Of a stretch of DNA of 64,000 nt, positions 32,453 to 53,708 are shown piece by piece; position 1 is the stretch's first letter; every line of letters begins with the position of its first letter. A model generated the notes under the pieces. It was not told the origin of the DNA, searched no databases, and worked only from the letters and a program-made list of their open reading frames with translations. The translations under genes and the position numbers were made by a program. This DNA is from Oceanimonas aquatica (lineage in GTDB: Bacteria > Pseudomonadota > Gammaproteobacteria > Enterobacterales > Aeromonadaceae). The stretch lies in assembly GCF_030732065.1 (NCBI RefSeq), contig NZ_JAVBHX010000004.1:1-64000 (forward strand). Reading direction: 5' to 3'.

Positions 32453-32472
32453 CAGAAAGGTCCATTCGAGCA

Positions 32473-33494: not shown

Positions 33495-33527
33495 GTGGTC
33501 CAAGCCAACGGCTGAAACTGGCGCTAC
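33495..33527 (+). promoter_or_regulatory. TauR direct repeats before tauX
   Basis: GTGGTCCAAG at 33495 and CTGGCGCTAC at 33518 start exactly 23 bp apart. The same paired arrangement occurs before xsc and tauK. The published Rhodobacter TauR repeat is CTGGACYTAA. CCCTTGCCCC follows 13 bp after the second repeat start, as before xsc. Confidence 0.68.
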
Positions 33528-33625
33528 CGACCCTTGCCCCTTTCCCCCTAATGTTATGAGCATGTAAACGCCCCGGTGCGCCGGGACATGATTCATCGCC
33601 ACTTGTTGGCCAAGGGAGAATTGAT

Positions 33626-34024
33626 ATGTCCGCTGAAAACAACCAGAAAACCGTTGCCCTGCTGGAGCAGCTGTTTGCCGCCTTTAACCGTCACGATATT
33701 GAAGGCGTGATGGCCTGCATGACCGACGATGTGGTGTTTGAAGGCGCCGCCGGCCCCGAAGCCCACGGCAACCGCTTTGAAGGCGCCGACGCCGTTGCGG
33801 CCGCCTTTGTCAATGTGTGGACCACCATGCCGGACGTGCAGTGGGAGAACACCAGCCACTTCGCCGCCGGCGATAAGGGCGTGTCCCAGTGGACCTTCTG
33901 CGCCACCACCCCGGACGGCCGCCGCATTGAAGCCGATGGTGTGGATCTGTTCACCCTCAAGGGTGGCAAGCTGGCGCTCAAGCAGGCCTTCCGCAAGGAT
34001 CGTCCGCTGCTGGATCCTCGCTAA
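33626..34024 (+). CDS. tauX: Taurine dehydrogenase small subunit TauX (SnoaL/NTF2-like)
   Basis: A 132-residue protein with the SnoaL_2/NTF2-like fold (NRHDIEGVMACMTDDVVFE, GADAVAAAFVNVWTTMPDVQWENTS). By itself this fold is not specific. It is assigned as TauX because it directly precedes a TauY-like flavoprotein in a locus with tauR, xsc, pta and tauKLM. AAGGGAGAA precedes the ATG. Probable TauR sites lie about 100 bases upstream. Confidence 0.78.
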   Translation: MSAENNQKTVALLEQLFAAFNRHDIEGVMACMTDDVVFEGAAGPEAHGNRFEGADAVAAAFVNVWTTMPDVQWENTSHFAAGDKGVSQWTFCATTPDGRRIEADGVDLFTLKGGKLALKQAFRKDRPLLDPR

Positions 34025-34062
34025 GCCACGGCAGCCTCACTCTGTTAACGGGAATCACGAAT

Positions 34063-35487
34063 ATGGATATGGTCAACAACACTCAGGCGGACTTCCGCCA
34101 GCCGGCCAAGGCCGATACCGTGCTGGATCGTTACGATCCCAGCTATGATCCCCTGGTGGCGCCCACGCCCGGACGGGGTCAGCAGTATGCCCCCACTTAC
34201 TGGGTTGCCACTGCCGGAACGCCGCCGGAGGATGATGGCCCCGTAACCGGTGACATGGATGTCGACGTCGTGATCATCGGCAGCGGCTTTACCGGCCTGT
34301 CCGCCGCCCTGCACCTGGCCAAGGAACACGGCATCAAGGCGACCGTGCTGGAAGCCAACCAGGTCAGCTGGGGCTGCACCAGCCGTAACGGTGGTCAGGC
34401 CCAGAATGCCTCGGGCCGGCTGACCCGCTCCCAGTGGATCAAGCGCTGGGGCCTGAGCACCGCCCGCAAAATGCACGACGAGGTGCAGGAAGGCTTTGAT
34501 ACCTTTAAAAGCCTGATCAAGGAAGGCAACATCGATTGCGATCCTCAGGCTGGCGGTCACCTCTACATTGCCCATCGCGACAAGGCCATGCGCAAGCTGG
34601 AGGCGGAAGCCAAGGTACTGCGCGAGCAGTTTGGTTATGAAACCGAGCTGCTCGACAAGCCCACCCTGAGCCGCGATTACGTCAACGAGGCCGAGGCCGT
34701 CGGCGCCATGCACGAGCCGGAAGGCATCGGCGTGCATCCGCTCAAGCTGGCCCAGGGTTACCATCGCATGGCCCGGGAGCTGGGTGCCACCATTCATCCG
34801 TCGAGCCCGGTGCTGGGCTGGGAAACCATCAACGGTGTGCATCACATCAAGACCCCGGGCGGCACGGTACGGGCCCGGGCGGTGGGCGTGGCCACCGGCG
34901 GCTATACCTCCCAGGGCCTGCATGGCAGCCTGAACAGCAAGATCATGCCGATACTGTCGAACTCGTTGGTAACCCGGCCGCTGACCGAGCAGGAGATTGC
35001 CGCCTGTAACTTCAAGACCAATGAAGTGATCACCGATACCCGCACCTTGCGTCATTACTACCGCAAGCTGCCCGACAACCGGGTGCAGATCGGCAGTCGC
35101 AGTTCCATTACCGGTGCCGATGCCAGCAATCCCAAGCACCTGCAATTGCTGATCGACGGGCTGCATCGCAAGTTTCCGCCGCTCAAGGGCATTCAGATCG
35201 ATTACTCCTGGTGGGGCTGGGTGGATGTGAGCCACGACATGATGCCGCGCATTTACCAGCCCGACGACAAGGAGCAGATCTTCTACGCCCTGGGTTACGG
35301 TGGCAACGGTGTCATGTTCTCGGCCCATGCCGGCCGCCGCATGGCTCAGCGCATTGCAGGCATTCGTGAAGGCTTTGAGCTGCCCATTTACAACTCGCCG
35401 CTGCCGGGGCATCTGTTCGCGCCCTTCCGCCGTCTGGGGCAGCGCATGCTGTATCACTGGTACCATTTGCGTGACGAAGTGCTGTAA
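34063..35487 (+). CDS. tauY: Taurine dehydrogenase large subunit TauY (FAD-dependent)
   Basis: A 474-residue DAO-family flavoprotein. DVVIIGSGFTGLSAALHLA near residues 68-86 is the ADP-binding beta-alpha-beta motif, followed by LEANQVSWGCTSRNGGQAQNASG, and the C-terminal GYGGNGVMFSAHAGRRMAQ closes the FAD site. It would oxidise taurine to sulfoacetaldehyde and ammonium, passing electrons to the respiratory chain. The sequence alone also fits PuuB/OrdL-type oxidases; locus context decides for TauY. It follows tauX by 38 bases. Confidence 0.82.
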   Translation: MDMVNNTQADFRQPAKADTVLDRYDPSYDPLVAPTPGRGQQYAPTYWVATAGTPPEDDGPVTGDMDVDVVIIGSGFTGLSAALHLAKEHGIKATVLEANQVSWGCTSRNGGQAQNASGRLTRSQWIKRWGLSTARKMHDEVQEGFDTFKSLIKEGNIDCDPQAGGHLYIAHRDKAMRKLEAEAKVLREQFGYETELLDKPTLSRDYVNEAEAVGAMHEPEGIGVHPLKLAQGYHRMARELGATIHPSSPVLGWETINGVHHIKTPGGTVRARAVGVATGGYTSQGLHGSLNSKIMPILSNSLVTRPLTEQEIAACNFKTNEVITDTRTLRHYYRKLPDNRVQIGSRSSITGADASNPKHLQLLIDGLHRKFPPLKGIQIDYSWWGWVDVSHDMMPRIYQPDDKEQIFYALGYGGNGVMFSAHAGRRMAQRIAGIREGFELPIYNSPLPGHLFAPFRRLGQRMLYHWYHLRDEVL

Positions 35488-35523
35488 AACTGCATTAAAT
35501 TGTTAACAATGCTTTTACTTTGC

Positions 35524-35557
35524 CGCCCTCTGAGTTAAAACCATGACTCAGAGGGCG
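35524..35557. other. 12-bp inverted repeat between tauY and tauR
   Basis: The arms 35524-35535 and 35546-35557 (core CCCTCTGAGT/ACTCAGAGGG) are exact complements around a 10-base loop. No T run follows in either direction, so it is either a rho-type or mRNA-stabilising hairpin at the end of tauXY, or an operator before tauR. Confidence 0.6.
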
Positions 35558-35609
35558 CACTGCGTGTTCCCGCCAGACGAACCCAACTCGCTGACAGGAA
35601 AGTCTTTTC

Positions 35610-37076
35610 ATGTTTCCGTTGTTCCATCTTTCCACCGAAAAAAGCACCAGCCTGCAACAACAACTGCGCGAGCAGATCGCCGCCGCCATTCTTAACGGCA
35701 ATATTCCCGTCGACAGTCCGCTGCCGTCCAGCCGCAAGCTGGCCAAGCAGCTCTGCATTGCCCGCAATACCGTGGTACTGGCCTACGAGCATCTGCTGGA
35801 TGACGGTTATCTGCTGGCCAGGGAGCGCAGCGGCTATTTCGTTAATCCCGAAATTCTGTCGCGCCAGCCCGAAGTGCCCGATGCCAAAATTCAGAGCACC
35901 GAAGGGACACCTCCGGACTGGAGCCGCAAGCTCAAAATTCATCCCAGTGGGCAACAGAACATCAGCAAGCCCAGAGACTGGCAGAAATATCCCTATTCCT
36001 TTATTTACGGCCAGTTCGATCCCACCCTGTTTCCCAGCAACAACTGGCGCGAATGCTGCCGCGATGCGGTGAGTATTCCGGCCATTCGCGACTGGGCGTC
36101 CGACAGTTTTGACAACGACGATCCCCTGCTGATCGAGCAGATCCGTACTCGCTTGCTGCCCCGGCGCGGCGTCTGGGCCTCGGCGGATCAGATCCTGGTG
36201 ACGGTGGGCGCTCAGCAGGCGCTGTACCTGCTGGCGCGCTTGTTGCTCGACAAGGACAGCACCATCGGCATCGAGGATCCGGGCTATGTGGATATTCGCA
36301 ATATCGCCACCATGAACCCGTCACAGGTGCGGCCGCTGCCGGTGGATGAGCAGGGGCTGATCATCGATGACAAGCTGTCCGGCTGCGATCTGGTGTACAC
36401 CACCCCCAGCCACCAGTGTCCGACCACGGTGACCATGCCATTGGAACGGCGCTATGAGCTGTTAAAGCAGGCCAGCGAGCAGGACTTTCTGATCATTGAA
36501 GATGACTACGAGAGCGAAACCAACTTCAAGGCCAACCCGACCCCGGCGCTGAAGAGCCTGGACCGTAATGACAGGGTGCTGTATGTGGGCAGCCTGTCAA
36601 AGACCCTGGCGCCCGGGCTGCGGCTGGGTTACCTGGTGGGACCGGCGGAGCTGATCCGCGAGGCCCGGGCCCTGCGCCGGCTGATGCTGCGCCATCCGGC
36701 GGCCAACAACCAGCGTTCGGTGGCGCTGTTTCTGGAGCGGGGCTATCACGATGCCCTGATCATGAACCTGGCCAAGGCCTATGAAGAACGCTGGCAGGAG
36801 ATGGGCGCGGCCCTGGACGAGTTTTTGCCGAGTTCCAGCCGCCAGCCCGGCTTTGGTGGCTCCTGCTACTGGGTGCGGGGGCCGGAAGGCCTGGACAGCC
36901 GCCTGCTGCGCAAGGAAGCCGCCGACAGAGGCATTTTGATCGAGCCCGGTGATATTCATTTTCAGGGCGAGCATGTGCCGCTCAACTATTTCCGGCTGGG
37001 CTATTCCTCCATATCGGCGGAGCGCATTCGTCCCGGTATCGAGGCGCTGGTGGCGCTGATCAAGGACATGACCTGA
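35610..37076 (+). CDS. tauR: MocR-type regulator TauR (GntR HTH plus aminotransferase-like domain)
   Basis: A 488-residue regulator. Residues about 10-75 form a GntR winged HTH (SRKLAKQLCIARNTVVLAYEHLLDDGYL). The rest is a class I/II aminotransferase fold that binds PLP; Lys331 in SLSKTLAPGLRLGYL is the Schiff-base lysine. TauR proteins activate taurine genes, sensing taurine through PLP. Assignment rests on position between tauXY and xsc-pta and on repeats resembling TauR sites at three promoters. GabR/PdxR paralogues are the alternatives. Confidence 0.82.
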   Translation: MFPLFHLSTEKSTSLQQQLREQIAAAILNGNIPVDSPLPSSRKLAKQLCIARNTVVLAYEHLLDDGYLLARERSGYFVNPEILSRQPEVPDAKIQSTEGTPPDWSRKLKIHPSGQQNISKPRDWQKYPYSFIYGQFDPTLFPSNNWRECCRDAVSIPAIRDWASDSFDNDDPLLIEQIRTRLLPRRGVWASADQILVTVGAQQALYLLARLLLDKDSTIGIEDPGYVDIRNIATMNPSQVRPLPVDEQGLIIDDKLSGCDLVYTTPSHQCPTTVTMPLERRYELLKQASEQDFLIIEDDYESETNFKANPTPALKSLDRNDRVLYVGSLSKTLAPGLRLGYLVGPAELIREARALRRLMLRHPAANNQRSVALFLERGYHDALIMNLAKAYEERWQEMGAALDEFLPSSSRQPGFGGSCYWVRGPEGLDSRLLRKEAADRGILIEPGDIHFQGEHVPLNYFRLGYSSISAERIRPGIEALVALIKDMT

Positions 37077-37159
37077 CCAACACTGGAGCATCGTCTGTCC
37101 GCGCAGCAGCAGGGTTGCCTTCGCCGACACGCTTCGAGCCCCTCCATGGGACGCTCGGC

Positions 37160-37179
37160 AAATGTCTTCCCTGACATTT
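37160..37179. repeat. Short inverted repeat in the tauR-exporter gap
   Basis: AAATGTCTTCCCTGACATTT has 7-bp arms. It sits in a 298-bp non-coding stretch that looks like dispersed intergenic repeat material; no frame in it is convincing. Confidence 0.4.
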
Positions 37180-37316
37180 GACGGTCGGCTTCGGCAATCC
37201 CTGTTGCTGCTTTGCTTAACCCTCAGGCCGTCTGCAAGCACCGTTCTTTGGAGCGCGGGCGGCTCGCCCGCAAATTGGCGCGAAGCGGCAAGCTTATTTC
37301 TCAACCCGACAACAAC

Positions 37317-37340
37317 AAAAAAAACCCCGCAAAGGCGGGG
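37317..37340 (-). terminator. Terminator of the exporter gene
   Basis: On the minus strand CCCCGC-CTTT-GCGGGG is followed by eight T. It ends the YeiH/TauZ-type gene. Confidence 0.88.
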
Positions 37341-37374
37341 CGAAAAATAGCAAGGGTAGTAAAAGAAGAAAATA

Positions 37375-38415
37375 TCAGCCCATCAGCAGCAGGTAGGCCA
37401 GTACCAGCAGGGCGATAAAGACGGTTTCCAGTACCACCAGCAGCACCGGCTTCCAGCCTACCGACAGAATGTCCTTGAGCTGGGTGCGCACGCCCAGGGC
37501 GGCAATGGCGGTGAGCAGCAACCAGGAAGAGCTGCCGGCCAGGGGCTGGGCAATTTCCTGCGGAATCCAGCTCAGGCTGTTGAGTACAAACAGCACCACA
37601 AAGCCGATGAGAAAGCCGGGAATGGCCACTCGGCTGCCACCGCTGCTTTCACCCTGCTTGCTGGCGGCGCGGCGGATCAGAATGCCGATGGTCATTACGA
37701 TGGGCACCAGCATGGCCACCCGCAGCAGTTTCACAAAGGTGCTGAGGTCACCGACTTCGGCCGACATGCTGTAACCGGCGCCCACGACCTGGGCCACATC
37801 GTGAATGGTGGCACCGATAAACAGGCCGGCTTCCTGATCCGACAGCCCCAGGGAGTCGCTTATCATGGGGTAGAAGATCATCGCCAGGGTGCTGAGAGTG
37901 GTGACGCTGATCACGGTAAACAGGGTGTCGCGCTTGGCCTGCTCACTCTGGGGCAGCACACTGCTGATGGCCATGGCGGCCGAGGCGCCGCAAATGGCCA
38001 CAGAGCCGCCGGTGAGGGTGCCAAACTCTTTGGAGAAGCCCAGCCAGCGGGCCATGACCACGCCAAAGCAGATGGTCAGCACCACGGCGGAGCACACCAT
38101 CAGCATGGGCTGCCAGCCCAGGGTAAGCACGTCACCAAAGGTGATGCGCAGGCCCAGCATGGCCACGCCCAGGCGCAGTATGGTTTTGGCCGACAGCTCA
38201 AGGCCCGGTGCACATTGGGGCTCCTGGCTGAGAAAGTTGAACGCCAGCCCCAGCAGCAGCGCCATCAGCATGGCGGGGGCGCCATAATGCTGGGACAAAA
38301 AGCTGGCGGCGATGCCGATGGTGGCGGCCACGCAAATGCCTGGAAAATAGCGTTTGCGGGTGCCGTCCAGGCGGTGTAGCAGGCCCATTACCGGAGAGTG
38401 GGTGTCGGCAGCCAT
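37375..38415 (-). CDS. YeiH/TauZ-type putative sulfate (sulfite) exporter
   Basis: A 346-residue, strongly hydrophobic protein with about ten membrane segments of the PF03601 (Putative Sulfate Exporter) family. LSAKTILRLGVAMLGLRITFGDV, GGSVAICGASAAMAISSVLP and FIGATIHDVAQVVGAGYS are family hallmarks. TauZ of Paracoccus belongs here and is proposed to export the sulfur released from taurine. Location inside the taurine locus supports that role. Start MAADTHS follows GGAGGAAATCCC. No TauR-type repeats precede it; a divergent LysR gene may control it. Confidence 0.83.
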   Translation of the reverse strand: MAADTHSPVMGLLHRLDGTRKRYFPGICVAATIGIAASFLSQHYGAPAMLMALLLGLAFNFLSQEPQCAPGLELSAKTILRLGVAMLGLRITFGDVLTLGWQPMLMVCSAVVLTICFGVVMARWLGFSKEFGTLTGGSVAICGASAAMAISSVLPQSEQAKRDTLFTVISVTTLSTLAMIFYPMISDSLGLSDQEAGLFIGATIHDVAQVVGAGYSMSAEVGDLSTFVKLLRVAMLVPIVMTIGILIRRAASKQGESSGGSRVAIPGFLIGFVVLFVLNSLSWIPQEIAQPLAGSSSWLLLTAIAALGVRTQLKDILSVGWKPVLLVVLETVFIALLVLAYLLLMG

Positions 38416-38553
38416 GGGATTTCCTCCGTGAAGCAAGACAAATGAATGTTGCTTTTATGTTATTGATGATGGTGTTGAGCGAGCCAATGCCGTTTTCGGC
38501 CATCGCGGTTACTTTTTTGCATAGGCGTTATTTTTAACAACAAGGACATGCTC

Positions 38554-39468
38554 ATGGAAACCAAATGGCTGCATGATTTTATCGCGCTCAGCGAGCAGGG
38601 CAGCTTTTCCCGGGCGGCGGAAAGCCGCTTTGTGACCCAGCCCGCGTTCAGCCGGCGCATTCGCTCCCTGGAAAACTGGCTGGGGGTGGCGCTGGTGTGC
38701 CGTAACCGCTATCCGCTGGAGCTGACGCCGGCGGGTGAAGCCTTTCTGGAGCAGGCCCGCCAGTTGCTGGCCCAGGTCTACGGCATGCGCAGCCAGTTGC
38801 GCCTGAGCCAGCAGCAGACGCCGGGCCTGAGCCTGATCACCCAGCCGGCGCTGGCGGTGACCTTTTTTCCCGCCTGGCTGCACCGGCTGCGGCCGGCCCT
38901 GGGCGAGGGCCTGGTGCGGCTCAATACCGGCCACTATCACGAGGCCATGGAGCAGTTCGTGGCGGGGGCGGTGGACTTTTTGCTGTGCTTTGCCGATGCC
39001 GGCAGCACCGCGGCGCTGCAGCGTCTGAACGTGGAGCGGCTGCGGGTGGGTCAGGACCGGCTGGCGCTGGTCTCGGCCACCGATGATCAGGGCAGCCCCC
39101 GGTTTCAGCTTGACGATGAGCAACCGCTGCCGCTGCTGCTGTACCCGAAGGATGCCTATCTCGGGGCACTGGTACAGCGGGAATGCCTGCCGGCCCTGGC
39201 GGAGCAGCCCTGGCAGCCGGTGTGTGAAAACGCCCTGGGCGAGGGGCTCAAGGCGCAGTTGCTGCAGGGCGAGGGCGTGGCGTTTCTGCCCGAAAGCCTG
39301 GTACGTGACGAGCTGGCCACCGGCCGGGTGTTGCCCCTCAACGGCGTGCGCCCGCTGGAACTCACCATTGAGCTGTGCCGGCTGGGAGAGCCTCGCTCGG
39401 AACTTGCCGAGCGCTTCTGGCAACAAAGCACCCTGCTGGCAGACAAGATGGGCGCATTGCGGCCCTGA
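38554..39468 (+). CDS. LysR-family regulator, HypT-like
   Basis: A 304-residue LysR protein. The N-terminus METKWLHDFIALSEQGSFSRAAESRFVTQPAFSRRIRSLE closely resembles HypT (YjiE), the hypochlorite-responsive regulator of E. coli; the C-terminal effector domain is generic. ATG 38554 is preferred over ATG 38548, which is too close to AAGGA. It is divergent from the exporter gene, with 138 bases between, so local control of the exporter is likely. Whether it senses oxidants, sulfite or something else cannot be read from the sequence. Confidence 0.8.
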   Translation: METKWLHDFIALSEQGSFSRAAESRFVTQPAFSRRIRSLENWLGVALVCRNRYPLELTPAGEAFLEQARQLLAQVYGMRSQLRLSQQQTPGLSLITQPALAVTFFPAWLHRLRPALGEGLVRLNTGHYHEAMEQFVAGAVDFLLCFADAGSTAALQRLNVERLRVGQDRLALVSATDDQGSPRFQLDDEQPLPLLLYPKDAYLGALVQRECLPALAEQPWQPVCENALGEGLKAQLLQGEGVAFLPESLVRDELATGRVLPLNGVRPLELTIELCRLGEPRSELAERFWQQSTLLADKMGALRP

Positions 39469-39805
39469 GCCGGCAGGCCAGCCCCTGATGGTTGAAAAAC
39501 AGGAGTCCGGGTCGGTCCGGTATGAAAGCCACTTGAGCCCAGTGTCCGGTTCAGGTTGGCCGATGGCGAAATACCAATTTTTTAACGCTGGCGTAACATG
39601 GGTGGCAAAACTGGCCCTATGTTCCCTTGCCCCCCCTTCCTAAGCTGTTTCCCAAGCGAGCCACCAAAGACTCAGTGTTGCAGCGGTGCTTGCTCGTCAT
39701 AACAAACGCAATTGCCCGAACAGAAAACGGAATATTGAACTCAACCCAACCGAGGGGGTTGGCTTAAGGCCGCCACCAACGGGAAACAGCAAAAGGAAGA
39801 CAGTT
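39469..39805. other. xsc upstream region
   Basis: This 337-bp gap holds the TauR-type repeats (39588-39620) and the CCCTTGCCCC box (39624-39633). The remaining 170 bases before xsc show no convincing frame or hairpin. Confidence 0.6.
39588..39620 (+). promoter_or_regulatory. TauR direct repeats before xsc
   Basis: CTGGCGTAAC at 39588 and CTGGCCCTAT at 39611 start exactly 23 bp apart, as before tauX and tauK. CCCTTGCCCC begins 13 bp after the second repeat start, the same offset as at tauX. Confidence 0.72.
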
Positions 39806-41569
39806 ATGCCACGTATGACTCCCAGTGAAGCTTTGGTCGAAACCCTGGCGGCCAACGGTGTTACCGACGTCTTCGGTATCATGGGCTCTGCCTTTATGGA
39901 TGCCATGGACATTTTCGCCCCCGCCGGCATTCGCCTGATCCCCACGGTGCACGAGCAGGGCGCCGGTCACATGGCCGATGGCTATGCCCGGGTCAGTGGC
40001 CGTCACGGTGTGTGTATCGCTCAGAACGGTCCCGGCATCACCAACTTCGTGACCGCCATTGCCGCCGCCTACTGGGCCCACAGCCCGGTGGTCTGCATCA
40101 CGCCGGAAACCGGCTCCATGACTCAGGGCCTGGGCGGCTTCCAGGAAGCGCAGCAGCTGCCCTTCTTTGAAACCATCACCAAATATCAGGGCCATGTGTC
40201 CAACCCGGCGCGTATGGCCGAGTACACCGCCCGCTGTTTTGACCGCGCCATGCTGGAAAACGGTCCGACCCAGCTCAACATTCCCCGTGACTTCTTCTAC
40301 GGCGACATCAACGTGGAAATCCCTCAGCCGATCCGCATCGAGCGTGGTGCCGGCGGTGAGCAAAGCCTGCAGCAGGCCGCGGCCCTGCTGGCCGAAGCCC
40401 AATTCCCGGTCATCATCTCCGGTGGCGGTGTGGTCATGGCCGACGCGGTAGAAGAGTGCAAGGCGCTGGCCGAATACCTGGGTGCGCCGGTAGTGAACAG
40501 CTACCTGCACAACGACTCCTTCCCCGCCAGCCACCCGCTGTGGTGTGGTCCGCTGGGTTACCAGGGCTCCAAGGCCGGCATGAAGCTGCTGTCCCGCGCC
40601 GATGTGGTACTGGCACTGGGCACCCGTCTGGGGCCGTTCGGTACCCTGCCGCAGCACGGTCTGGACTACTGGCCGAAGGAAGCCAAGATCATTCAGGTGG
40701 ACTGCGATGCCAAGATGCTGGGCCTGGTGAAGAAGATCTCCGTGGGCGTATGTGGCGATGCCAAGGCCGCTGCCGTGACCATTCTGGATCGCCTGCAGAG
40801 CCTCAACGTCTCCTGCCTGGAAAACAAGGGCGCCCGTGCCACCGAAATCGCTTCCGAAAAAGAAGCCTGGGAACAAGAGCTGGACCAGTGGATTCACGAG
40901 AAGGACGATTACTCCCTCGACATGATCGCCGAGCAGTCCGAAGAGCAGGGTAACTACCTGCACCCGCGTCAGGTACTGCGTGAGCTGGAAAAGGCCATGC
41001 CCGAAGACGTGATGGTGTCTACCGATATCGGTAACATCAACTCCGTGGCCAACAGCTACCTGCGCTTTGAAAAGCCGCGTTCCTTCTTCGCCGCCATGAG
41101 CTTCGGCAACTGCGGTTACGCCCTGCCGACCATCATCGGTGCCAAGACCGCCGCGCCCAACCGTCCGGCCGTTTCCTACGCCGGTGACGGCGCCTGGGGC
41201 ATGTCCATGATGGAAATCATGACCTGCGTACGTGAGCACATTCCGGTTACTTCCATCGTGTTCCACAACCGCCAGTGGGGCGCCGAGAAGAAGAACCAGG
41301 TTGATTTCTACAACCGCCGCTTCGTGGCCGGTGATCTGGAAAACCCGAGCTTTGCCGACATCGCCCGCTCCATGGGTGCCGAAGGGGTAACCGTCGACAA
41401 GCTGGAAGACGTGGGTCCGACTCTGCAGGCTGCTATCCAACGCCAGATGGAAGAAGGCAAGACCACCGTTATCGAAATCATGTGTACCCGCGAACTGGGC
41501 GACCCCTTCCGTCGTGACGCCCTGTCCAAGCCGGTACGTCACCTGGACAAGTACAAGGACTATTGCTGA
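39806..41569 (+). CDS. xsc: Sulfoacetaldehyde acetyltransferase Xsc
   Basis: Thiamine-diphosphate enzyme cleaving sulfoacetaldehyde with phosphate to acetyl phosphate and sulfite, the desulfonation step of taurine catabolism. 587 residues. VHEQGAGHMADGYARVSG holds the ThDP-activating Glu; GDGAWGMSMMEIMTCVREHIP through FHNRQWGAEKKNQ is the ThDP-Mg motif and is Xsc-like rather than acetolactate-synthase-like. IlvI at 10.9 kb is the clear paralogue for comparison. AAAGGAAG precedes ATG 39806; 40 upstream in-frame residues are rejected. Confidence 0.94.
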   Translation: MPRMTPSEALVETLAANGVTDVFGIMGSAFMDAMDIFAPAGIRLIPTVHEQGAGHMADGYARVSGRHGVCIAQNGPGITNFVTAIAAAYWAHSPVVCITPETGSMTQGLGGFQEAQQLPFFETITKYQGHVSNPARMAEYTARCFDRAMLENGPTQLNIPRDFFYGDINVEIPQPIRIERGAGGEQSLQQAAALLAEAQFPVIISGGGVVMADAVEECKALAEYLGAPVVNSYLHNDSFPASHPLWCGPLGYQGSKAGMKLLSRADVVLALGTRLGPFGTLPQHGLDYWPKEAKIIQVDCDAKMLGLVKKISVGVCGDAKAAAVTILDRLQSLNVSCLENKGARATEIASEKEAWEQELDQWIHEKDDYSLDMIAEQSEEQGNYLHPRQVLRELEKAMPEDVMVSTDIGNINSVANSYLRFEKPRSFFAAMSFGNCGYALPTIIGAKTAAPNRPAVSYAGDGAWGMSMMEIMTCVREHIPVTSIVFHNRQWGAEKKNQVDFYNRRFVAGDLENPSFADIARSMGAEGVTVDKLEDVGPTLQAAIQRQMEEGKTTVIEIMCTRELGDPFRRDALSKPVRHLDKYKDYC

Positions 41570-41578
41570 CAGGTACGG

Positions 41579-41600
41579 CTGCCCTTCGGGGCAGTCTTTT
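41579..41600 (+). terminator. First hairpin between xsc and pta
   Basis: CTGCCC-TTCG-GGGCAG followed by TCTTTTT, a typical intrinsic terminator. Confidence 0.8.
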
Positions 41601-41628
41601 TACCCGGCCGCTTGCGGCCGGGTTTTTT
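41601..41628 (+). terminator. Second hairpin between xsc and pta
   Basis: ACCCGGCCGC-TT-GCGGCCGGGT followed by a T run. Two terminators in tandem should limit readthrough from xsc into pta. Confidence 0.85.
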
Positions 41629-41702
41629 CCAGAAAGCCAACCCAATCCCGTTTGCCGAGCGGTATTCGGTTGTCTACTGGCCATCATCAAAGGGAATCCG
41701 TG

Positions 41703-42656
41703 ATGCTCAATACCAATCCTAAGGAATGTCCGGCCCATCTGCTGGAGCAGGCCCGGCAATACTCAGCCGTCAGCACAGTGGTGATTAACCCGGTCAACCG
41801 GGTGTCCCTGGCCAGCGCGCACCTGGCACAGCAGGAAGGGCTGATCACGCCCATTCTGGTGGGCAATGAAGCGCGGGTGCGCCAGGAAGCCGAGGCCATG
41901 GGCTGGGATCTGTCCGGCGTCCGCCTGGTGGATGCTGCCGACGAGGCCGATGCCGCCCGTCTGGGGGTGGCCCTGGTCAGTCAGGGCGAGGCCGACGCCA
42001 TCATGAAGGGCCATGTGCATACCGACGTATTGCTGCGGGCGGTGCTTAACCGTGCCGCCGGGCTGCGTACCGACAGCCGCCTGAGCCATGTATTCCACAT
42101 GACGGTGCCGGGCAGCTGCCGGGCTCTGTGCATCACCGATGCGGTGATCAACGTACAGCCCGGTGTGCTCGACAAGCTGCATATCGCCCGCAACGCCATT
42201 GAGCTGCTGCACGCCCTGGGCTGCGACGAGCCCAAGGTGGCGCTGCTGTCGGGCACCGAAGAGGTGAGCAAGAGCATGCCCTCGAGCCAGGACGCCGCCG
42301 AGCTGGTCAAGCTGGCGGCCATGGGCGCCCTGCCCGGCGCCGTGGTGGAAGGACCACTGGCGTTCGACAATGCCGTGTCCCGGGAAGCGGCCGAGATCAA
42401 GGGCATTTCCGGGCAGGTTCCGGGCGAGGCCGATATTCTGCTGGTGCCCAACCTGGAGTCGGGCAACTTTCTGTTCAAGCAGATGGTGTACTTTATGGGG
42501 GCCACCGCCGCCGGTCTGGTGCTGGGGGCGCGCGTGCCCATTATCCTCACCTCCCGTGCCGATCCGCCCGAGGCGAGGCTGGCGTCCTGCGCCCTGGCCA
42601 GCATAGTGCACCACAACCGTCAGACCACTGCGGCACCCACCCGCGTCAGCGCCTGA
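41703..42656 (+). CDS. pta: Phosphate acetyltransferase (short Pta type)
   Basis: A 317-residue PTA/PTB-family enzyme converting the acetyl phosphate made by Xsc into acetyl-CoA. GEADAIMKGHVHTDVLLRAVL, LSGTEEVSKSMPSSQDAAELVKLA and LVPNLESGNFLFKQMVYF are family motifs. It lacks the long N-terminal domain of the housekeeping Pta, as in other taurine loci. Phosphate butyryltransferase is an alternative by sequence; xsc next to it favours Pta. Two terminators separate it from xsc, so it probably has some transcription of its own. Confidence 0.85.
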   Translation: MLNTNPKECPAHLLEQARQYSAVSTVVINPVNRVSLASAHLAQQEGLITPILVGNEARVRQEAEAMGWDLSGVRLVDAADEADAARLGVALVSQGEADAIMKGHVHTDVLLRAVLNRAAGLRTDSRLSHVFHMTVPGSCRALCITDAVINVQPGVLDKLHIARNAIELLHALGCDEPKVALLSGTEEVSKSMPSSQDAAELVKLAAMGALPGAVVEGPLAFDNAVSREAAEIKGISGQVPGEADILLVPNLESGNFLFKQMVYFMGATAAGLVLGARVPIILTSRADPPEARLASCALASIVHHNRQTTAAPTRVSA

Positions 42657-42671
42657 ACAAGGAGAGAACAG

Positions 42672-42965
42672 ATGAGCCTGAGTCGTTACGGATTTATTGT
42701 AAAAGCGCCCAGCCTGGAGATGTTCAAGCATCATGGCCGCATCAAGAGCGAAGCCTTTGATCTGGCAGTATCCGGCGTCAGCACCCTGGAAGAAGCCATC
42801 ATGGCCGCTCAGGAAATGCTGACCCGCCGCATCGAGTTGATTGAACTGTGCGGCGGCTTTACCGCCGAGGAAGAAGCGGCGATCCGCGAGGCGATCAACG
42901 ATCATGTGCCTCTGGGTCGTGCGGTTACCCGCCCCGAGGATCAGGACAGGATCCACTGGGCCTAG
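42672..42965 (+). CDS. DUF6506-like small protein of the taurine locus
   Basis: A 97-residue soluble protein beginning MSLSRYGFIVKAPSLEMF and containing IELIELCGGFTAEEEAAIREAI and VPLGRAV. The pattern (GFIVKAP, then ELCGGF, then PxGxV) resembles the DUF6506 family as I recall it; no function is established. It starts 15 bases after pta with GGAG before the ATG, so it is co-transcribed with pta. A role in taurine carbon or sulfur metabolism is inference from position only. Confidence 0.6.
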   Translation: MSLSRYGFIVKAPSLEMFKHHGRIKSEAFDLAVSGVSTLEEAIMAAQEMLTRRIELIELCGGFTAEEEAAIREAINDHVPLGRAVTRPEDQDRIHWA

Positions 42966-42986
42966 CATTCATTGTGTACGCTTTTT

Positions 42987-43011
42987 AACCGGGCCGATGC
43001 CCGGTTTTTTT
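42987..43011 (+). terminator. pta operon terminator
   Basis: AACCGGGC-CGAT-GCCCGGTT followed by a T run. Confidence 0.9.
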
Positions 43012-43060
43012 GTTTCGGAGTGTATCAGTTGCATCGTTGCCCGAACCCCGTCATTCCCGT

Positions 43061-43102
43061 GAAAACAGCAATCCAGGACAGGTGTGCAGCGGCATTAACA
43101 TC
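43061..43102 (+). repeat. 42-base intergenic repeat, copy 1
   Basis: GAAAACAGCAATCCAGGACA then GGTGTGCAGCGGCATTAACA; copy 2 at 43184-43225 differs at about five positions. The flanking TCATTCCCGT and AATCCAG parts are typical of dispersed intergenic repeats. Confidence 0.75.
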
Positions 43103-43183
43103 GACGAAGCCGGTGACATGGCCCCCGCCTTCGCGGGGGTGACGACTTTACAAGCAAGAAGTGCCCACATGTCGTCATACTCT

Positions 43184-43225
43184 GAAAACGGGAATCCAGG
43201 GCAGGTGTGCAGCGGCATTAATATC
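43184..43225 (+). repeat. 42-base intergenic repeat, copy 2
   Basis: GAAAACGGGAATCCAGGGCA then GGTGTGCAGCGGCATTAATA, 123 bases after copy 1. Confidence 0.75.
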
Positions 43226-43410
43226 GGCGCAGTAACTGACATGGGCTTTATGCCTTTACAACGGCTACGCCTGCCAGGCCTGGTAATCAACGTGAGTGTT
43301 GTCTGCTGGGTGGACCCCCCGCCTTGGCGGGGGTGACCTGGTGAAATGCCGGGGAGTGGCCTGGTGAAGGTAAGGAGCCCCTGTCGAAAGACGGGAGCCG
43401 CCTGAAGGGA

Positions 43411-43911
43411 TCAGGCCTTGTTCTTTTCCGGACGGGGCACGATCAGCGTCGGAATGCGCGATTCGCGCAGCACGTTCTTGGCCACGCTGCCCAGCAGGGT
43501 CTGCAGCCAGCCCTTTTCGTGGGCACCCATGATAATCAGATCGCAGTCCAGCTCCTTTGAGCGCTTCAGAATGGTCTGCTCCGGGTAACCTTCCACCACC
43601 TCGCAGCCCGTGATTTTGGGGCGCAGGGCCTTTTCTTCCGGAGCGATATGCTCCCAGAAATAATCCTGGCGCTCCTGCAACTGGGCCTTGGCGTGGTTCA
43701 GGCGCTGGTGCAAAAACTCTTCCCGGCTGTTCTGGTTGAGAATATAGGACTGCAGGGTGAGCTTTTCGTCGCTGGAGAGTTGCTCCACCACCTTGAGAAT
43801 ATGAATGTCGGCGCCGGTCTGTTTGGCCAGATACACGGCATACTGAAAGGCGTAGGACGCGTTCTTGGACAGGTCGGTGCAATACAGGATTCGGTTGACT
43901 TGCGGCAGCAT
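43411..43911 (-). CDS. Universal stress protein (UspA family) linked to the TRAP transporter
   Basis: A 166-residue UspA protein. NRILYCTDLSKNASYAFQYAVYLA is the N-terminal strand-helix, and IIMGAHEKGWLQTLLGSVAKNVL carries the ATP-binding Gly-rich motif. USPs commonly sit beside TRAP transporters, for example TeaD beside TeaABC, where they modulate transport. It lies 143 bases after tauM in the same direction, behind a hairpin, so it may be partly co-transcribed. Role in taurine uptake is inference. Confidence 0.87.
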   Translation of the reverse strand: MLPQVNRILYCTDLSKNASYAFQYAVYLAKQTGADIHILKVVEQLSSDEKLTLQSYILNQNSREEFLHQRLNHAKAQLQERQDYFWEHIAPEEKALRPKITGCEVVEGYPEQTILKRSKELDCDLIIMGAHEKGWLQTLLGSVAKNVLRESRIPTLIVPRPEKNKA

Positions 43912-43984
43912 GTGGTACTCCCTTACTGGCTGGAATCGTAATTTTCACTGATCAGCATAGACGCTGAACCATGACATCATGATG

Positions 43985-44031
43985 ATGCCGCCGGCGCGAA
44001 CGGGCCTTGACCCTGATCACGCCGGCGGCAT
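43985..44031 (-). terminator. Long-loop inverted repeat after tauM
   Basis: ATGCCGCCGGCG (43985-43996) and CGCCGGCGGCAT (44020-44031) are exact complements. There is no T run, so it may be an attenuating or stabilising structure between tauM and the USP gene. Confidence 0.5.
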
Positions 44032-44054
44032 TGTTACAGACTTGAGTTGGCTCC

Positions 44055-45398
44055 CTAATACCCGAGCAATCTGGGCAGGAACAGAGTGATTTCCGGTATA
44101 AAGGCGATAATGAACACCGCCAGTACCGAGGTCAGGGCAAAGGGCAGGGCCCGCACGGAAATTTCCTCGATGGAGGTGCCCGATACCCCCGAGGCGATAA
44201 ACAGGTTTTCACCCAATGGCGGAGTCTGGAAGCCGATGGACAGACAACACACCACCACAATGCCGAAGTGAACCGGGTCAATCCCCAGGCTATAGGCCAC
44301 CGGCAGCAGTACCGGAGTCAGGATCAGAATGGCCGCCAGGGTCTCCATGAACATGCCCACAAACAGCAGGAAGAAGATGATCAGCGCCCAGATCAGGTAG
44401 ATGTTGCTGGTCAGCTCCAGCATCGACGAGGCGACGATGGCCGGGATCTGGTTTTCCACCAGCAGCCGTCCGAACACGGTGGCGGTAAACAGGATGAGCA
44501 GCACGCGGCCGGTAAGCCAGGTGGTGGTTTCCAGCGAACGCAGCACGTCCTTTATCTTCAGCTCCCGGTGCACGAAAAAGCCGATGAACAGGGTGTAGAA
44601 GATGGCGACAATGGCCGACTCGGTGGGGGTGAACAGACCGCTGTAAATACCGCCCAGAATCACGATGGGGGCCAGCACCGACCAGGTTCCCTTGCGCAGC
44701 ATGGCAAGAATGTTGGCGCCGGACCAGCCATCGGTAGTGCCCTTGTAACCCTGTTTCTTGCACATGAAATAGTTCATGGTCAGCAGGCCGCAGGACAGCA
44801 CCAGTCCCGGGAAAAAGCCGGCAATAAACAGTTTGGGAATGGATACCGACTGGAACTGGCCGTGTTCGGCCACTGCCTCGGGGGGCGCCATCAGACCAAT
44901 GGCGGAAATACCGAAGATCACCATGGGAATGGACGGCGGAATGACCACGCCCAGACCGCCGGAAGAAGCGGTAATGGCCGAGGCATAACCCTTGCCATAG
45001 CCCCGATCGACCATGGCCGGAATCATCAGCATGCCCACGGCGGCGGTGGTGGCGGGACCGGAGCCGGAAATGGCGCCAAAGAACATGCAGGCCATGACGG
45101 TGGCGGCCGACATGCCGCCGGTAAAGGGCCCGGCAAAACTCTCGGCCAGATCCACCAGCCGTTTGGAAATGCCGGCGGCTTCCATCAGGGCGCCGGCCAG
45201 TATAAAGGCGGGCAGCGCCATCAGCGGAAAGGAGCCCACCGAGGTAAAGGCGATTTGCACGAACTTGATGGGGTTTTCACCCAGATAAAGGAACGATGCC
45301 AGCGCCGATACCCCCAGCGACACGCTGATGGGCGCACCCAGCAGCAGCAGCGCCAGAAAGCTGCCGAACAGGATTAGTACGACGGATGATTCAACCAT
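44055..45398 (-). CDS. tauM: TRAP transporter large permease TauM (DctM)
   Basis: A 447-residue DctM subunit with about 12-13 membrane segments, the ion-coupled transport channel of the TRAP system. LLLGAPISVSLGVSALASF and MACMFFGAISGSGPATTAAVGMLMIPAMVDRGY are DctM signatures. It overlaps tauL by eight bases. Taurine as substrate is inferred from the locus (tauKLM in Paracoccus and Rhodobacter), not from the sequence itself. Confidence 0.85.
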   Translation of the reverse strand: MVESSVVLILFGSFLALLLLGAPISVSLGVSALASFLYLGENPIKFVQIAFTSVGSFPLMALPAFILAGALMEAAGISKRLVDLAESFAGPFTGGMSAATVMACMFFGAISGSGPATTAAVGMLMIPAMVDRGYGKGYASAITASSGGLGVVIPPSIPMVIFGISAIGLMAPPEAVAEHGQFQSVSIPKLFIAGFFPGLVLSCGLLTMNYFMCKKQGYKGTTDGWSGANILAMLRKGTWSVLAPIVILGGIYSGLFTPTESAIVAIFYTLFIGFFVHRELKIKDVLRSLETTTWLTGRVLLILFTATVFGRLLVENQIPAIVASSMLELTSNIYLIWALIIFFLLFVGMFMETLAAILILTPVLLPVAYSLGIDPVHFGIVVVCCLSIGFQTPPLGENLFIASGVSGTSIEEISVRALPFALTSVLAVFIIAFIPEITLFLPRLLGY

Positions 45399-46011
45399 GA
45401 TGTGCTCCCGCTTTTACTCGGCCTTGAGTGGGGGACTGGGGTTCGTCCTTTTGCGCAGGATCATTTGCCTGCGGCTGCTGGGCCGAGTCCATGAGTTTTT
45501 CCACTTCCAGCGACTCGGGATCGCGAATGTCGATGCCCTTGACCAGCTTGTAGTAATTCACCTGCAAAATACGAAAGGTCATCAGTGCAAAGGCGATGGG
45601 CAGGATCATGTAAACGTATTTCATCGGAAATCCGAGGGTCTGGGATTTCCAGAACAGGTTCATTTTATTGAACACGAAGTCATAGCTGAGCCAGACGAAG
45701 TAGCTGTTGAAACCCACCCAGATCAGGTCGGCCAGTGCTTCGCTCCACACCGCCACGCGGGGCGGGAACAGCTTGAACTGAAAGGTAACCCGGTTGTGGG
45801 CCGCCAGTTTGGTGGCGTAGCTGGCACCAAAATAGACGAACCAGACAAACATATAAGTGGATAGTTCTTCACTCCAGGAGATGGAGTAATCGAACAACTG
45901 CCGCGAAATGATCTGAATAAACAGAATAACAACAAAGGTGGCGAGCAGGGTGCTGCAGAGAACCCTTTCAATGTTGTCGATAATTTTATAAGTAAGTTTG
46001 CCGATACTCAT
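45391..46011 (-). CDS. tauL: TRAP transporter small permease TauL (DctQ)
   Basis: A 206-residue DctQ-family protein with four membrane segments (for example LCSTLLATFVVILFIQIISR) and a charged C-terminal tail. YSISWSEELSTYMFVWFVYFGA is the conserved DctQ block. Start MSIGKLTYK follows GGGAGGAAAATGCC. It pairs with TauM, whose start it overlaps. Confidence 0.84.
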   Translation of the reverse strand: MSIGKLTYKIIDNIERVLCSTLLATFVVILFIQIISRQLFDYSISWSEELSTYMFVWFVYFGASYATKLAAHNRVTFQFKLFPPRVAVWSEALADLIWVGFNSYFVWLSYDFVFNKMNLFWKSQTLGFPMKYVYMILPIAFALMTFRILQVNYYKLVKGIDIRDPESLEVEKLMDSAQQPQANDPAQKDEPQSPTQGRVKAGAHHG

Positions 46012-46034
46012 GGCATTTTCCTCCCTGATGGACG

Positions 46035-46059
46035 CTGCCCCCGGTGGGACCGGGGGCAG
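46035..46059 (-). other. Perfect 11-bp hairpin between tauK and tauL
   Basis: CTGCCCCCGGT and ACCGGGGGCAG around a 3-base loop, without a T run. Such structures protect the upstream mRNA, allowing more binding protein than permease to be made. Confidence 0.65.
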
Positions 46060-46077
46060 TATCACTAGGCCTGTTGC

Positions 46078-47091
46078 TTAGATGGTGTCCCGGCCCAGGG
46101 ATTTCAGGATCTTGTTCAGTTCTTCCTTGCCACCCAGCTGGTCGTAGTACTTGGGCCAGACCTGGCTGACGGCCTTGTCGATCCACTCTTGTTCGCCACC
46201 GGCCGGCTCGGTAATTTCCATACCTTTCTCAACCAGCTCGGTCTTGATCTTGTCTTCCTGGGCAACCAGCCACTCGGCACTGTGCTTGGTGGCTACCTTG
46301 CCAGCTTCCAGAATGGCCTGCTGCACATCTTCCGGCTGTTCCTGGAATACGGCTTCGGACATGACCAGCGGCTCAATGGAGAACAGATAACGAATGTTGG
46401 TGATGTATTTCTGCACCTCATCGAACTTCATGGAAGATACGGTGATGTAGGGGTTGTCCTGACCGTCGACCACGCCCATCTGCAGGCCGGTAAAGGTTTC
46501 GGACCAGGCCATGGGGGTGGGGTTGATGCCCCAGGCGCGGTAGGTGTCGATCATGATCTCGTTGTTGGGCACACGAATCTTCAGGCCCTGCAGATCGGAC
46601 AGCTTTTCTACCGGCTTCTGGGAATTGGTCAGTACCCGGAATCCGGTATAGGTCCAGCCCACAATGCGCACGCCGGCATCACGAACAGTGTTTTCCACCA
46701 GTTGCTGGCCCACTTCCCCTTGAGTCAGGGTCACGGCGTCATCCAGGCTCTGCATCATGTAGGGCAGGGTCAGTACGCCCACCGACGGAGAGAAGGGGGT
46801 CACGTTGTTGATGGCCAGAATGGAGAAGTCGAGCAATCCCATGGAGGCATCGTTGACGGTGGCCTGTTCGTCACCCAGCTGGCCGTTGAGGAACATCTGG
46901 GTGTCGTGTTTGCCGTCGGTTTTTTCTGCAAATGCTTCGGAAAATTTCAGACCCAGCTGGTGCTGGGCACTGCCGGCAGCATCACCGACTGCAATACGAA
47001 ATGTCTTCGCCAGCACCTGAGGGCTGGCCATGGCGGCGCCAAGGCAGAGGGCGAGGGAGACGGACTTCACAAAACGTTGCTTGAATATCAT
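46078..47091 (-). CDS. tauK: TRAP transporter substrate-binding protein TauK (DctP)
   Basis: A 337-residue periplasmic protein. Residues 1-29 are a Sec signal peptide ending ASPQVLA-K. The mature domain has the DctP fold: SAQHQLGLKFSEAFAEKTDGK, then LQGLKIRVPNNEIMIDTYRAWGINPTPMAWSETFTGLQMGVVDGQDNP, where the Arg of KIRVPN usually binds a substrate carboxylate or sulfonate. First gene of tauKLM, with TauR-like repeats upstream. Confidence 0.85.
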   Translation of the reverse strand: MIFKQRFVKSVSLALCLGAAMASPQVLAKTFRIAVGDAAGSAQHQLGLKFSEAFAEKTDGKHDTQMFLNGQLGDEQATVNDASMGLLDFSILAINNVTPFSPSVGVLTLPYMMQSLDDAVTLTQGEVGQQLVENTVRDAGVRIVGWTYTGFRVLTNSQKPVEKLSDLQGLKIRVPNNEIMIDTYRAWGINPTPMAWSETFTGLQMGVVDGQDNPYITVSSMKFDEVQKYITNIRYLFSIEPLVMSEAVFQEQPEDVQQAILEAGKVATKHSAEWLVAQEDKIKTELVEKGMEITEPAGGEQEWIDKAVSQVWPKYYDQLGGKEELNKILKSLGRDTI

Positions 47092-47410
47092 GGTTTCTTG
47101 CTCCAGTTGTGTGGCCCGGTTGAAACCGGGCGTTTACCTTCCGTGATAGCCGGAGTGCGAACACTCCGTGAGACTGGCTCAATACATGCCGCTCTGCCCT
47201 GAAAGGGACCGCCAGGACGGCTTGCCGTGGTGTTCGGCTTCTCGAAAGCCTGACAACATCTTTGAATGAGGCTGTTAAATTGGTTAGGGCCACTTGTGTT
47301 TTCAAGCTGGGTCCAGAATAAAACCTCTTTTTTATCAATGCTTTGAAAATGTCCTTTGTAAAAAAACTGTTAATTATTTTGTGTGAGATGACACTGGTCA
47401 GGAATTCGGT
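47092..47410. other. tauK upstream region
   Basis: A 319-bp gap after cobT. It holds the TauR-type repeats (47284-47316) read toward tauK. The rest is AT-rich and I see no terminator for cobT with a clear T run. Confidence 0.6.
47284..47316 (-). promoter_or_regulatory. TauR direct repeats before tauK
   Basis: Read toward tauK, CTGGACCCAG starts at 47316 and GTGGCCCTAA at 47293, exactly 23 bp apart, matching the pairs at tauX and xsc. The CCCTTGCCCC box of those two promoters is absent here. Confidence 0.7.
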
Positions 47411-49153: not shown

Positions 49154-50134
49154 TCAGATTGCCGTCAGTTGCAGGGTTTGCGGTTCGATCAGCTCCTCAT
49201 CAAAGCAGCGCTGGTAGTATTCGGCCACCAGCGGACGTTCGGCCTCGTCGCACTTGTTGAGAAACGACAGCCGGAACGCCAGCGCGGCATCATTGAAGAT
49301 CTCGGTGTTTTCGGCCCAGGCGATCAGGGTGCGGGGCGACATCAGGGTGGACAGATCGCCGGCGGCAAAGCCGGCCCGGGTGAGCTCGGCCACCGCCACC
49401 ATGCGGCTGATCAGCTCATGGCCACGGGCGTCGTTATAGCGGGGCACCTTGCCCTGAATGATTTGAATTTCGTCTTCCCGGGGCAGGTAGTCGAGCTTGG
49501 CGACGATGTTCCAGCGATCCATCTGGGCCTGGTTGATTTGCTGGGTGCCGTGATACAGGCCGGTGACGTTGCCCAGGCCCACGGTGTTGGCGGTGGCGAA
49601 CAGACGGAAATTGGGGTTGGGAGTGATCACCTGATTCTGGTCGAGCAGGGTGAACTTACCGTCCTGCTCCAGAATGCGCTGGATCACGAACATCACGTCC
49701 GGGCGGCCGGCGTCGAATTCGTCAAAGATCAGCGCCACCGGCCGGCGCAGCGCCCAGGGCACTATGCCTTCCTGAAAGCGGGTGATCTGCTTGCCTTCCT
49801 CCAGCACGATTGTGTCCTTGCCCACCAGATCCAGACGGCTGATGTGGCCGTCGAGGTTGACCCGCACGCAGGGCCAGTTGAGGCGGGCGGCCACCTGCTC
49901 AATGTGGGTGGACTTGCCGGTGCCGTGCAGGCCCTGCAGCAGCACCCGGCGGTTGCGGGTAAAGCCGGCCAGAATGGCCAGGGTGACATCCGGATTGAAG
50001 CAGTAGTTGGGGTCGATGTCGGGCACGTGTTCGTCTTTGTGCTCGAACACCGGTACCTGCATGTCCACGTCGAGGTTGAACAGTTCGCGTACCGGGCGCA
50101 GCCGGCTGGGGTGGTCGTGAAGAAGATCGGTCAT
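49154..50134 (-). CDS. CobS-like AAA+ ATPase
   Basis: A 326-residue AAA+ protein of the CobS/MoxR type. Walker A GLHGTGKST is at 68-76, Walker B VALIFDEFD near 133-141, and FRLFATANTVGLGNVTGLYHGTQQINQAQMDRW is the CobS sensor region. The N-terminal CobS block (LDVDMQVPVFEHKDEHVPDIDPNYCF) is present. MTDLLHDHPSRL is chosen as start; 12 further residues upstream lack support. CobS drives metal insertion by CobN together with CobT. It forms a two-gene unit with the CobT homologue. Confidence 0.85.
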   Translation of the reverse strand: MTDLLHDHPSRLRPVRELFNLDVDMQVPVFEHKDEHVPDIDPNYCFNPDVTLAILAGFTRNRRVLLQGLHGTGKSTHIEQVAARLNWPCVRVNLDGHISRLDLVGKDTIVLEEGKQITRFQEGIVPWALRRPVALIFDEFDAGRPDVMFVIQRILEQDGKFTLLDQNQVITPNPNFRLFATANTVGLGNVTGLYHGTQQINQAQMDRWNIVAKLDYLPREDEIQIIQGKVPRYNDARGHELISRMVAVAELTRAGFAAGDLSTLMSPRTLIAWAENTEIFNDAALAFRLSFLNKCDEAERPLVAEYYQRCFDEELIEPQTLQLTAI

Positions 50135-50246
50135 GGCACTGGCCTCGCTGGCAACGGCTAAGAATAACAAAGTGTTAACACACTCTAACTGTCACCGAAG
50201 CCCTGAACAGGGCCAGTTGCGCGGCGGCCATATGGCCAGTGTGCTC

Positions 50247-53525: not shown

Positions 53526-53708
53526 CTGGTGCCAGCGAAAAGGCTGAACTGGCCCTGTTCATTCTTTCCGGGGCGGGCTAGACTTCTCGGCCTGTTGCTC
53601 GACCCGGCCCGCGTGTCGGCGCTGCTCAAGGAAGAAGGCCTGAAGCAACAGTTTTCTCCGCAAGAAGTGCGGGATTGTGTTGAATAATGAACTTCCGAGT
53701 GAGCAGCA

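Follow-up and report, generated by a model that had tools for sequence, protein, structure and literature searches.

Seven box pairs with a 23-bp offset in a taurine gene cluster of Oceanimonas aquatica, probable operators of a MocR-family TauR regulator

The closest described system is the TauR regulon, in which the repeats of Rhodobacter capsulatus TauR are direct and read CTGGACYTAA (Suvorova and Rodionov, 2016; PMC5320631). In the accessible part of that study, a conserved motif was found across all reconstructed TauR regulons, and the distance between boxes was mostly constant within a group, with slight variation. A MocR-type regulator and direct repeats near CTGGACYTAA were shared by the regulons of alpha-, beta- and gammaproteobacteria; the targets given there included tauXY, xsc and tauMLK for alphaproteobacteria and only tauABC, tpa and an amino-acid ABC transporter for gammaproteobacteria. 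According to the same text, GabR of Bacillus subtilis, which belongs to the MocR subfamily, has an operator of direct repeats too, and differs by an additional inverted repeat proposed between the two direct repeats. The window analysed here, a stretch of 64,000 nucleotides from Oceanimonas aquatica (contig NZ_JAVBHX010000004.1, positions 1 to 64,000), contains a taurine gene cluster with paired boxes of this type. Sites were located at tauXY, xsc and tauKLM, as in the alphaproteobacterial regulons, and also at CobS/CobT-like (CobST-like), DUF3461 and orf82 genes, unlike the gammaproteobacterial list in the part of PMC5320631 available. Operators of this kind are known; what is new is the enlarged regulon, chiefly the CobST-orf82-DUF3461 genes.

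A box pair was defined as two same-facing ten-mers with a spacer of 13 base pairs (bp), whose starts were 23 bp apart (offset 23). Seven such pairs were located inside about 21 kb of the window, at the promoters of tauX, xsc, tauK, the cobS-like gene, two DUF3461 genes (a and b) and orf82. The first three had been reported in a preliminary description of this DNA, and the coordinates, strands, 23-bp offset and orientation to the gene of their six ten-mers were all verified; the other four were newly added. Conservation in the list refers to 11 genomes of the same GTDB genus (that of the window and ten others), in which a promoter score of 20 or more, based on weights chosen after the sites had been seen, was counted as high.

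33495..33527, plus strand: tauX pair, GTGGTCCAAG, 13 bp, CTGGCGCTAC; -10-like TAATGT at 33549-33554; kept in 11 of 11 genomes.
39588..39620, plus strand: xsc pair, CTGGCGTAAC, 13 bp, CTGGCCCTAT; -10-like TAAGCT at 39641-39646; kept in 11 of 11 genomes.
47284..47316, minus strand: tauK pair, CTGGACCCAG, 13 bp, GTGGCCCTAA; AAAGAT at the -10 place, without TAnnnT; kept in 11 of 11 genomes.
50207..50239, minus strand: pair of the CobS/CobT-like genes, CTGGCCATAT, 13 bp, CTGGCCCTGT; -10-like TAGAGT at 50182-50187; score of at least 20 in 11 of 11 genomes.
53526..53558, plus strand: DUF3461a pair, CTGGTGCCAG, 13 bp, CTGGCCCTGT; -10-like TAGACT at 53579-53584; 10 of 11 genomes.
54507..54539, plus strand: DUF3461b pair, CTGGTCTCAT, 13 bp, CTGGCTCTAG; -10-like TAGCCT at 54560-54565; 10 of 11 genomes.
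54474..54506, minus strand: orf82 pair, CTGGCCCTAT, 13 bp, CTGGTGCTAA; -10-like TAGAGT at 54448-54453; 11 of 11 genomes.

The orf82 and DUF3461b pairs stood back to back. The four added pairs enlarged the three-promoter regulon of the preliminary description, whose proposal of a TauR regulon with 23-bp spacing was upheld by genome-wide offset scans, conservation in the 11 genomes and loci of other families. The offset had also been equated with two helical turns; the offset was correct, and 23 bp correspond to about 2.2 turns rather than exactly two.

The occurrence of pairs by chance was evaluated in the window and in the 3.45-Mb genome. In the window, 39 offset-23 pairs scored at least 13 of 20 against CTGGACYTAA, and 10 of those had TGG in both boxes. 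Pairs with TGG in both boxes and a score of at least 14 numbered six at offset 23, whereas zero to three were found at other offsets from 12 to 44. Scores of 13, 14 and 16 were obtained for the pairs of tauX, xsc and tauK, respectively. A single pair compared with this consensus is weak evidence, and the pairs as a set are strong evidence. A pattern built from the tauX, xsc and tauK pairs gave nine matches in the genome over offsets 11-41. Four of them were at offset 23, all within the window and including the orf82 pair (54506, minus strand), whose site had not been used in building the pattern; the five at other offsets were outside the window. Hence, the 23-bp pairs did not occur at random frequency elsewhere in the genome. 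When the pattern was widened to the seven pairs, 71 matches were obtained over the same offsets, eight at offset 23 (seven within the window and one at C2:63400) and 63 over the other 30 offsets. Reversed-pattern controls over all offsets gave 67 matches for the three-pair pattern and 23 for the seven-pair pattern; the comparison between offsets was preferred to this control because the letter order of a reversed pattern differs. Across 200 dinucleotide-shuffled versions of the window, the seven-site pattern, which had been fitted to the seven sites, matched 0.005 times on average and at most once, compared with the seven matches observed.

Conservation within the genus was consistent with these scans. 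Offset-23 pairs scoring at least 20 were found in 75 of 77 promoter-genome cases, compared with 8 of 177 control cases from 17 control genes. The upstream regions of tauX, xsc and tauK orthologues, whose comparison the preliminary description had proposed, carried the pair in all 11 genomes, as did those of the cobS-like gene and orf82; DUF3461a and DUF3461b scored in 10 genomes each. The two misses were DUF3461a in G015 and DUF3461b in G013, where the boxes, judged by eye, were 22 bp apart. The high-scoring controls were tauM (4), tauL (2), sulP (1) and aldh (1), and for tauM and tauL the upstream stretch belongs to the gene before. Moreover, among the rows that scored, the box columns varied less than those of the 13-bp spacer, and this held for every one of the seven promoters. 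A chance likeness in a GC-rich genome rich in CTGG would fit the tauX pair by itself, which at 13 of 20 resembles many others in the window. This explanation was contradicted by the offset specificity, by the conservation of the tauX, xsc and tauK pairs in every genome and by the shuffles, and it is extremely improbable. Another stretch, CCCTTGCCCC, which the window has in both its tauX and its xsc promoter, was set aside because it was retained in only some genomes of the genus.

The pairs were also explored outside the family in 70 loci (L015-L084), which were chosen for TauR similarity alone; they were not independent, and many came from Pseudomonas. In these loci, 71 matches were found at offset 23, compared with six at 22, three at 24 and zero to seven at others from 15 to 32. 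An offset-23 match was present in 46 of the 70 loci, whereas every other offset was represented in at most six. The genes after the pairs included xsc, tauX, tauK and tauZ, together with alanine dehydrogenase-like, Tpa-like and GMC oxidoreductase-like genes, which were named from translations. A different picture of the spacing emerged from four loci on plasmids that contain a TauR homologue. In Paracoccus pantotrophus, Sinorhizobium medicae and Limimaricola, a pair was located just upstream of the homologue with a spacing of 22 bp, in contrast to the 23 bp of the window; at a score of at least 16, Limimaricola additionally had one match at offset 17 and one at 24. In the fourth locus, from Caballeronia, the sole match was at offset 24 and within a gene. 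The fixed spacing claimed earlier therefore applied to the window's genome and to most gammaproteobacterial pairs but not to the three alphaproteobacterial loci, and the offset seems to be lineage-bound.

Several observations concerned the Pseudomonas loci. The tauZ-like exporter gene (Cons_hypoth698; 37375-38436 in the window) had no pair in the window's genus, whereas all 14 Pseudomonas loci having tauZ carried one upstream at offset 23, with scores of 14-16 of 20 versus 10-11 in three Oceanimonas loci; tauZ is inside or outside the regulon depending on the lineage. In L026 and L030, a third box, CTGGACCCAG, was found before xsc, 10 bp upstream of box 1, and it may account for an extra xsc signal at offsets 33-34. 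In six loci (L024, L029, L030, L032, L033 and L063), a pair whose box 2 ended in CCAT was located ahead of the GMC oxidoreductase-like gene, which we take to be possibly an isethionate dehydrogenase.

The position of the pairs relative to the promoter was similarly regular. At six of the seven window promoters, a -10-like hexamer, TAnnnT, followed the start of box 2 by about 30 bp. Of 75 promoter-genome cases in the genus, 63 had the hexamer begin 52-54 bp downstream of the start of box 1, 46 of these at 53. Outside the family, the distance from the start of box 2 to the hexamer was 29-31 bp in 55 of 71 pairs, and the DUF3461 promoters of L018-L020 had a full TATAAT starting at 52-53. If TAnnnT is the -10 element, box 2 spans roughly -42 to -33. 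Hence, the regulator probably occupies the place of the -35 element, and TauR probably aids RNA polymerase as an activator that replaces the -35 contact. Box 2 at about -35 would suit repression too, and a TauR that acted on the pairs mainly as a repressor relieved by taurine could be considered; as TauR is described as an activator of taurine metabolism in the accessible part of PMC5320631, this role is quite unlikely. A sigma-54 promoter was rejected for tauX and xsc, where the GG-to-GC spacing, judged by eye and without a scan, was wrong. A lone offset-22 pair, CTGGCCTAAG/CTGGCTCTAA, was found at G000:C21:189868-189898 (L172, 3399, minus strand), between isocitrate lyase-like and AhpC-like genes named from translations, and it had no TAnnnT in place.

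The most likely binder of the boxes, as judged from sequence, is TauR, whose gene is located in the cluster. Both of its domains, PF00392 (a GntR winged helix-turn-helix) and PF00155 (aminotransferase-like), scored above the cut-off. It matched the GabR structures 4n0b and 4mgr (chains at an expectation value, E, of 2.5e-49), and TauR and GabR are alike in domain layout and sequence. Its translation contains a SLSKTLAPGLRLGY stretch, a putative pyridoxal 5'-phosphate-binding lysine motif of the aminotransferase-like domain. The closest relatives of TauR in the named collection were from Oceanimonas (92-93%), followed by Zobellella and Oceanisphaera. The genes near the pairs, comprising xsc (identified by TIGR03457), a TRAP transporter and tauXY-like genes, are taurine transport and breakdown genes that fit a TauR regulon. 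The seven pairs are very probably operators of this local MocR-family TauR, which would act as an activator with taurine. The winged helix of each TauR monomer would read one TGG-containing box, and a head-to-tail dimer would set two reading heads on the same-facing boxes 23 bp apart. When taurine is present, TauR at the -35 place would help RNA polymerase onto the promoters. With one pair at each of seven promoters, the CobS/CobT-like genes, the two DUF3461 genes and orf82 would join tauXY, xsc and tauKLM.

Two other assignments of the binder were weighed. A GntR gene (32567) is directly upstream of tauX and a LysR gene (38548) is directly upstream of xsc, and either could encode the protein bound at the boxes. 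At an identity of at least 40%, neither neighbour was found in any of the 70 outside loci, although 46 carried pairs (TauR was present in all 70 by selection); these loci are short, and copies elsewhere in the genomes are possible. Furthermore, four of the ten other genus genomes (G001, G015, G020 and G021) had no LysR gene between tauR and xsc, and the xsc pair was intact there. Binding by one of these neighbours is very unlikely. Alternatively, only the tau pairs might belong to TauR, and those of cobS, DUF3461 and orf82 to a TauR paralogue (C20:68751; 56% identical) or to a further MocR protein that recognises a similar box, a division that would fit the ending of box 2 in CTGT instead of CTA in the cobS and DUF3461a pairs of the window. 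However, four of the ten genomes (G001, G002, G003 and G013) had one TauR-class match each at an E of 1e-100 or better, and in those four the cobS, DUF3461a and orf82 pairs still scored at least 20, as did DUF3461b in three. In addition, the 15 of 61 genomes that had orf82 were precisely those with a TauR of at least 85% identity, and the geometry of the added pairs was the same as that of the tau pairs. Such a division of the sites is unlikely. At the paralogue locus itself, no such pair was seen at offsets 22-24 with the settings used. The paralogue adjoins TRAP transporter genes (tauM-like, 43%).

Several points weigh against the assignment of all seven pairs to TauR. The paralogue (55-56% identity; G000:C20:68751-70190, L173) could share the sites, the boxes matched the published consensus at only 13-16 of 20, and the tauK promoter lacked a TAnnnT where one was expected in all 11 genomes. 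By the pattern used, 24 of the 70 outside-family TauR loci had no pair, and the three alphaproteobacterial loci held theirs at 22 bp. In two same-genus clusters with a TauR of 57-58%, the pairs faced tauX and tauK, and none was found facing xsc or cobS; cobS and tauX are divergent in these clusters, and the tauX-facing pair was present in the three examined. The patterns and score weights were fixed only once the sites had been seen, and the genomes compared are related and hence no independent samples. The pattern for the outside loci was written after some of their tauX and xsc sites were visible, so the comparison between offsets serves as the test.

The gene names used in the preliminary description were confirmed, with xsc identified by a curated model, tauKLM as a TRAP transporter, tauXY as a SnoaL-like protein with an oxidoreductase dependent on flavin adenine dinucleotide (FAD), and a MocR-type regulator. 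The genes of the cluster are as follows.

33626..34024, plus strand: tauX, SnoaL/NTF2-like small subunit gene.
34063..35487, plus strand: tauY, FAD-dependent oxidoreductase.
35610..37076, plus strand: tauR, MocR-type regulator with GntR winged helix-turn-helix and aminotransferase-like domain; proposed binder.
39803..41569, plus strand: xsc, sulfoacetaldehyde acetyltransferase; TIGR03457, 1034 bits against a cut-off of 676.
46078..47091, minus strand: tauK, TRAP solute-binding protein.
45391-46065 and 44055-45398: tauL and tauM, TRAP permeases downstream of tauK.
49154..50134, minus strand: CobS-like AAA+ ATPase.
47411..49150, minus strand: CobT-like VWA protein, downstream of the CobS-like gene.
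53709..54113, plus strand: DUF3461 gene a, PF11944.
54598..54951, plus strand: DUF3461 gene b, shorter paralogue, PF11944.
54157..54405, minus strand: orf82, 82 residues, three helices predicted.

The annotated tau operon on the Limimaricola plasmid had the same gene kinds, among them an NTF2-like gene followed by an FAD oxidoreductase. The substrate of tauKLM is presumably taurine. Genes that look like purine-breakdown genes border the taurine cluster on both sides (27825-33388 and 55018-59173). They include xanthine dehydrogenase-like, XdhC-like, guanine deaminase-like, xanthine/uracil permease family and allantoinase-like genes, among others, and their names, except that of the permease, were assigned from translations alone.

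The distribution of the added genes was evaluated in 61 relatives, the window's own genome included. A TauR of at least 85% identity was present in 15, all of which, and no others, had orf82; the CobS-like gene occurred in these 15 and additionally in four with a TauR of 57-60%. The CobS-like gene, orf82 and tauR are neighbours, so their joint occurrence may be mere co-travel. In the 70 outside loci, genes of at least 40% identity were found near tauR 10 times for cobS-like, eight for orf82 and five for DUF3461a. Upstream of orf82 outside the family, an offset-23 pair scoring 13-15 was found in seven of eight loci, compared with at most four of eight at other offsets from 17 to 30; upstream of DUF3461a, a pair scoring 13-17 was found in six of six, compared with at most four of six. 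As a background, 9% of 600 random 420-bp stretches from these loci reached 13. Upstream of cobS, one of ten loci passed at offset 23 (L028), which did not surpass other offsets, one of them reaching six of ten; by eye, similar boxes were present in L027 and L029 and a 22-bp version in L031. Good support for the cobS site is thus confined to the genus of the window.

The best models for the CobS/CobT-like proteins were CobS and CobT, at 521.7 bits against a cut-off of 558.55 (scored from an upstream TTG start) and 298.8 against 759.05, both under the curated NCBIfam cut-offs. TIGR02257, the model for the large subunit CobN, had no match in the genome and matched 5 of 14 control genomes. Therefore, cobalt insertion by the pair is unlikely. 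The best guess is a MoxR/VWA-type chaperone. In accessible accounts of the MoxR AAA+/VWA chaperone pairs NorQ/NorD and CbbQO, the likeness lies in adjacent AAA+ and VWA genes, here in a genome without a CobN match, and the difference is that the best models of the window's pair are CobS and CobT. For the orf82 protein, a Pfam search yielded no confident match, and a fold search with the predicted structure (mean predicted local distance difference test, pLDDT, of 89) gave a best E of 1.2. The predicted DUF3461 model was poor (mean pLDDT 68). Among 370 genomes drawn evenly from the class, orf82 occurred only in the window's own, which made a cross-table with xsc impossible.

Members of this gene group adjoin tauR in Aeromonadaceae, Pseudomonas and oceanospirilla, and TauR-type pairs are retained there at the orf82 and DUF3461 promoters. 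The chances are evenly balanced that the CobS/CobT-like AAA+/VWA pair, DUF3461 and orf82 together constitute an accessory module of C2-sulfonate catabolism that has so far gone unrecognised; the module would be induced by TauR along with xsc and perhaps mature or reactivate a pathway enzyme. In the literature searched, which left most subscription papers outside, no paper contained the word DUF3461, and none combined taurine dehydrogenase with CobT or sulfoacetaldehyde acetyltransferase with cobaltochelatase.

For marine bacteria, taurine is an important source of carbon, nitrogen and sulfur. What makes the finding valuable is the enlarged regulon together with the promoter geometry. A TauR operator at a fixed place relative to the promoter would make the regulon readable from genome sequence, and a testable role is offered for genes that lack a functional assignment here, namely DUF3461, orf82 and a CobST-like pair in a genome without a CobN match.

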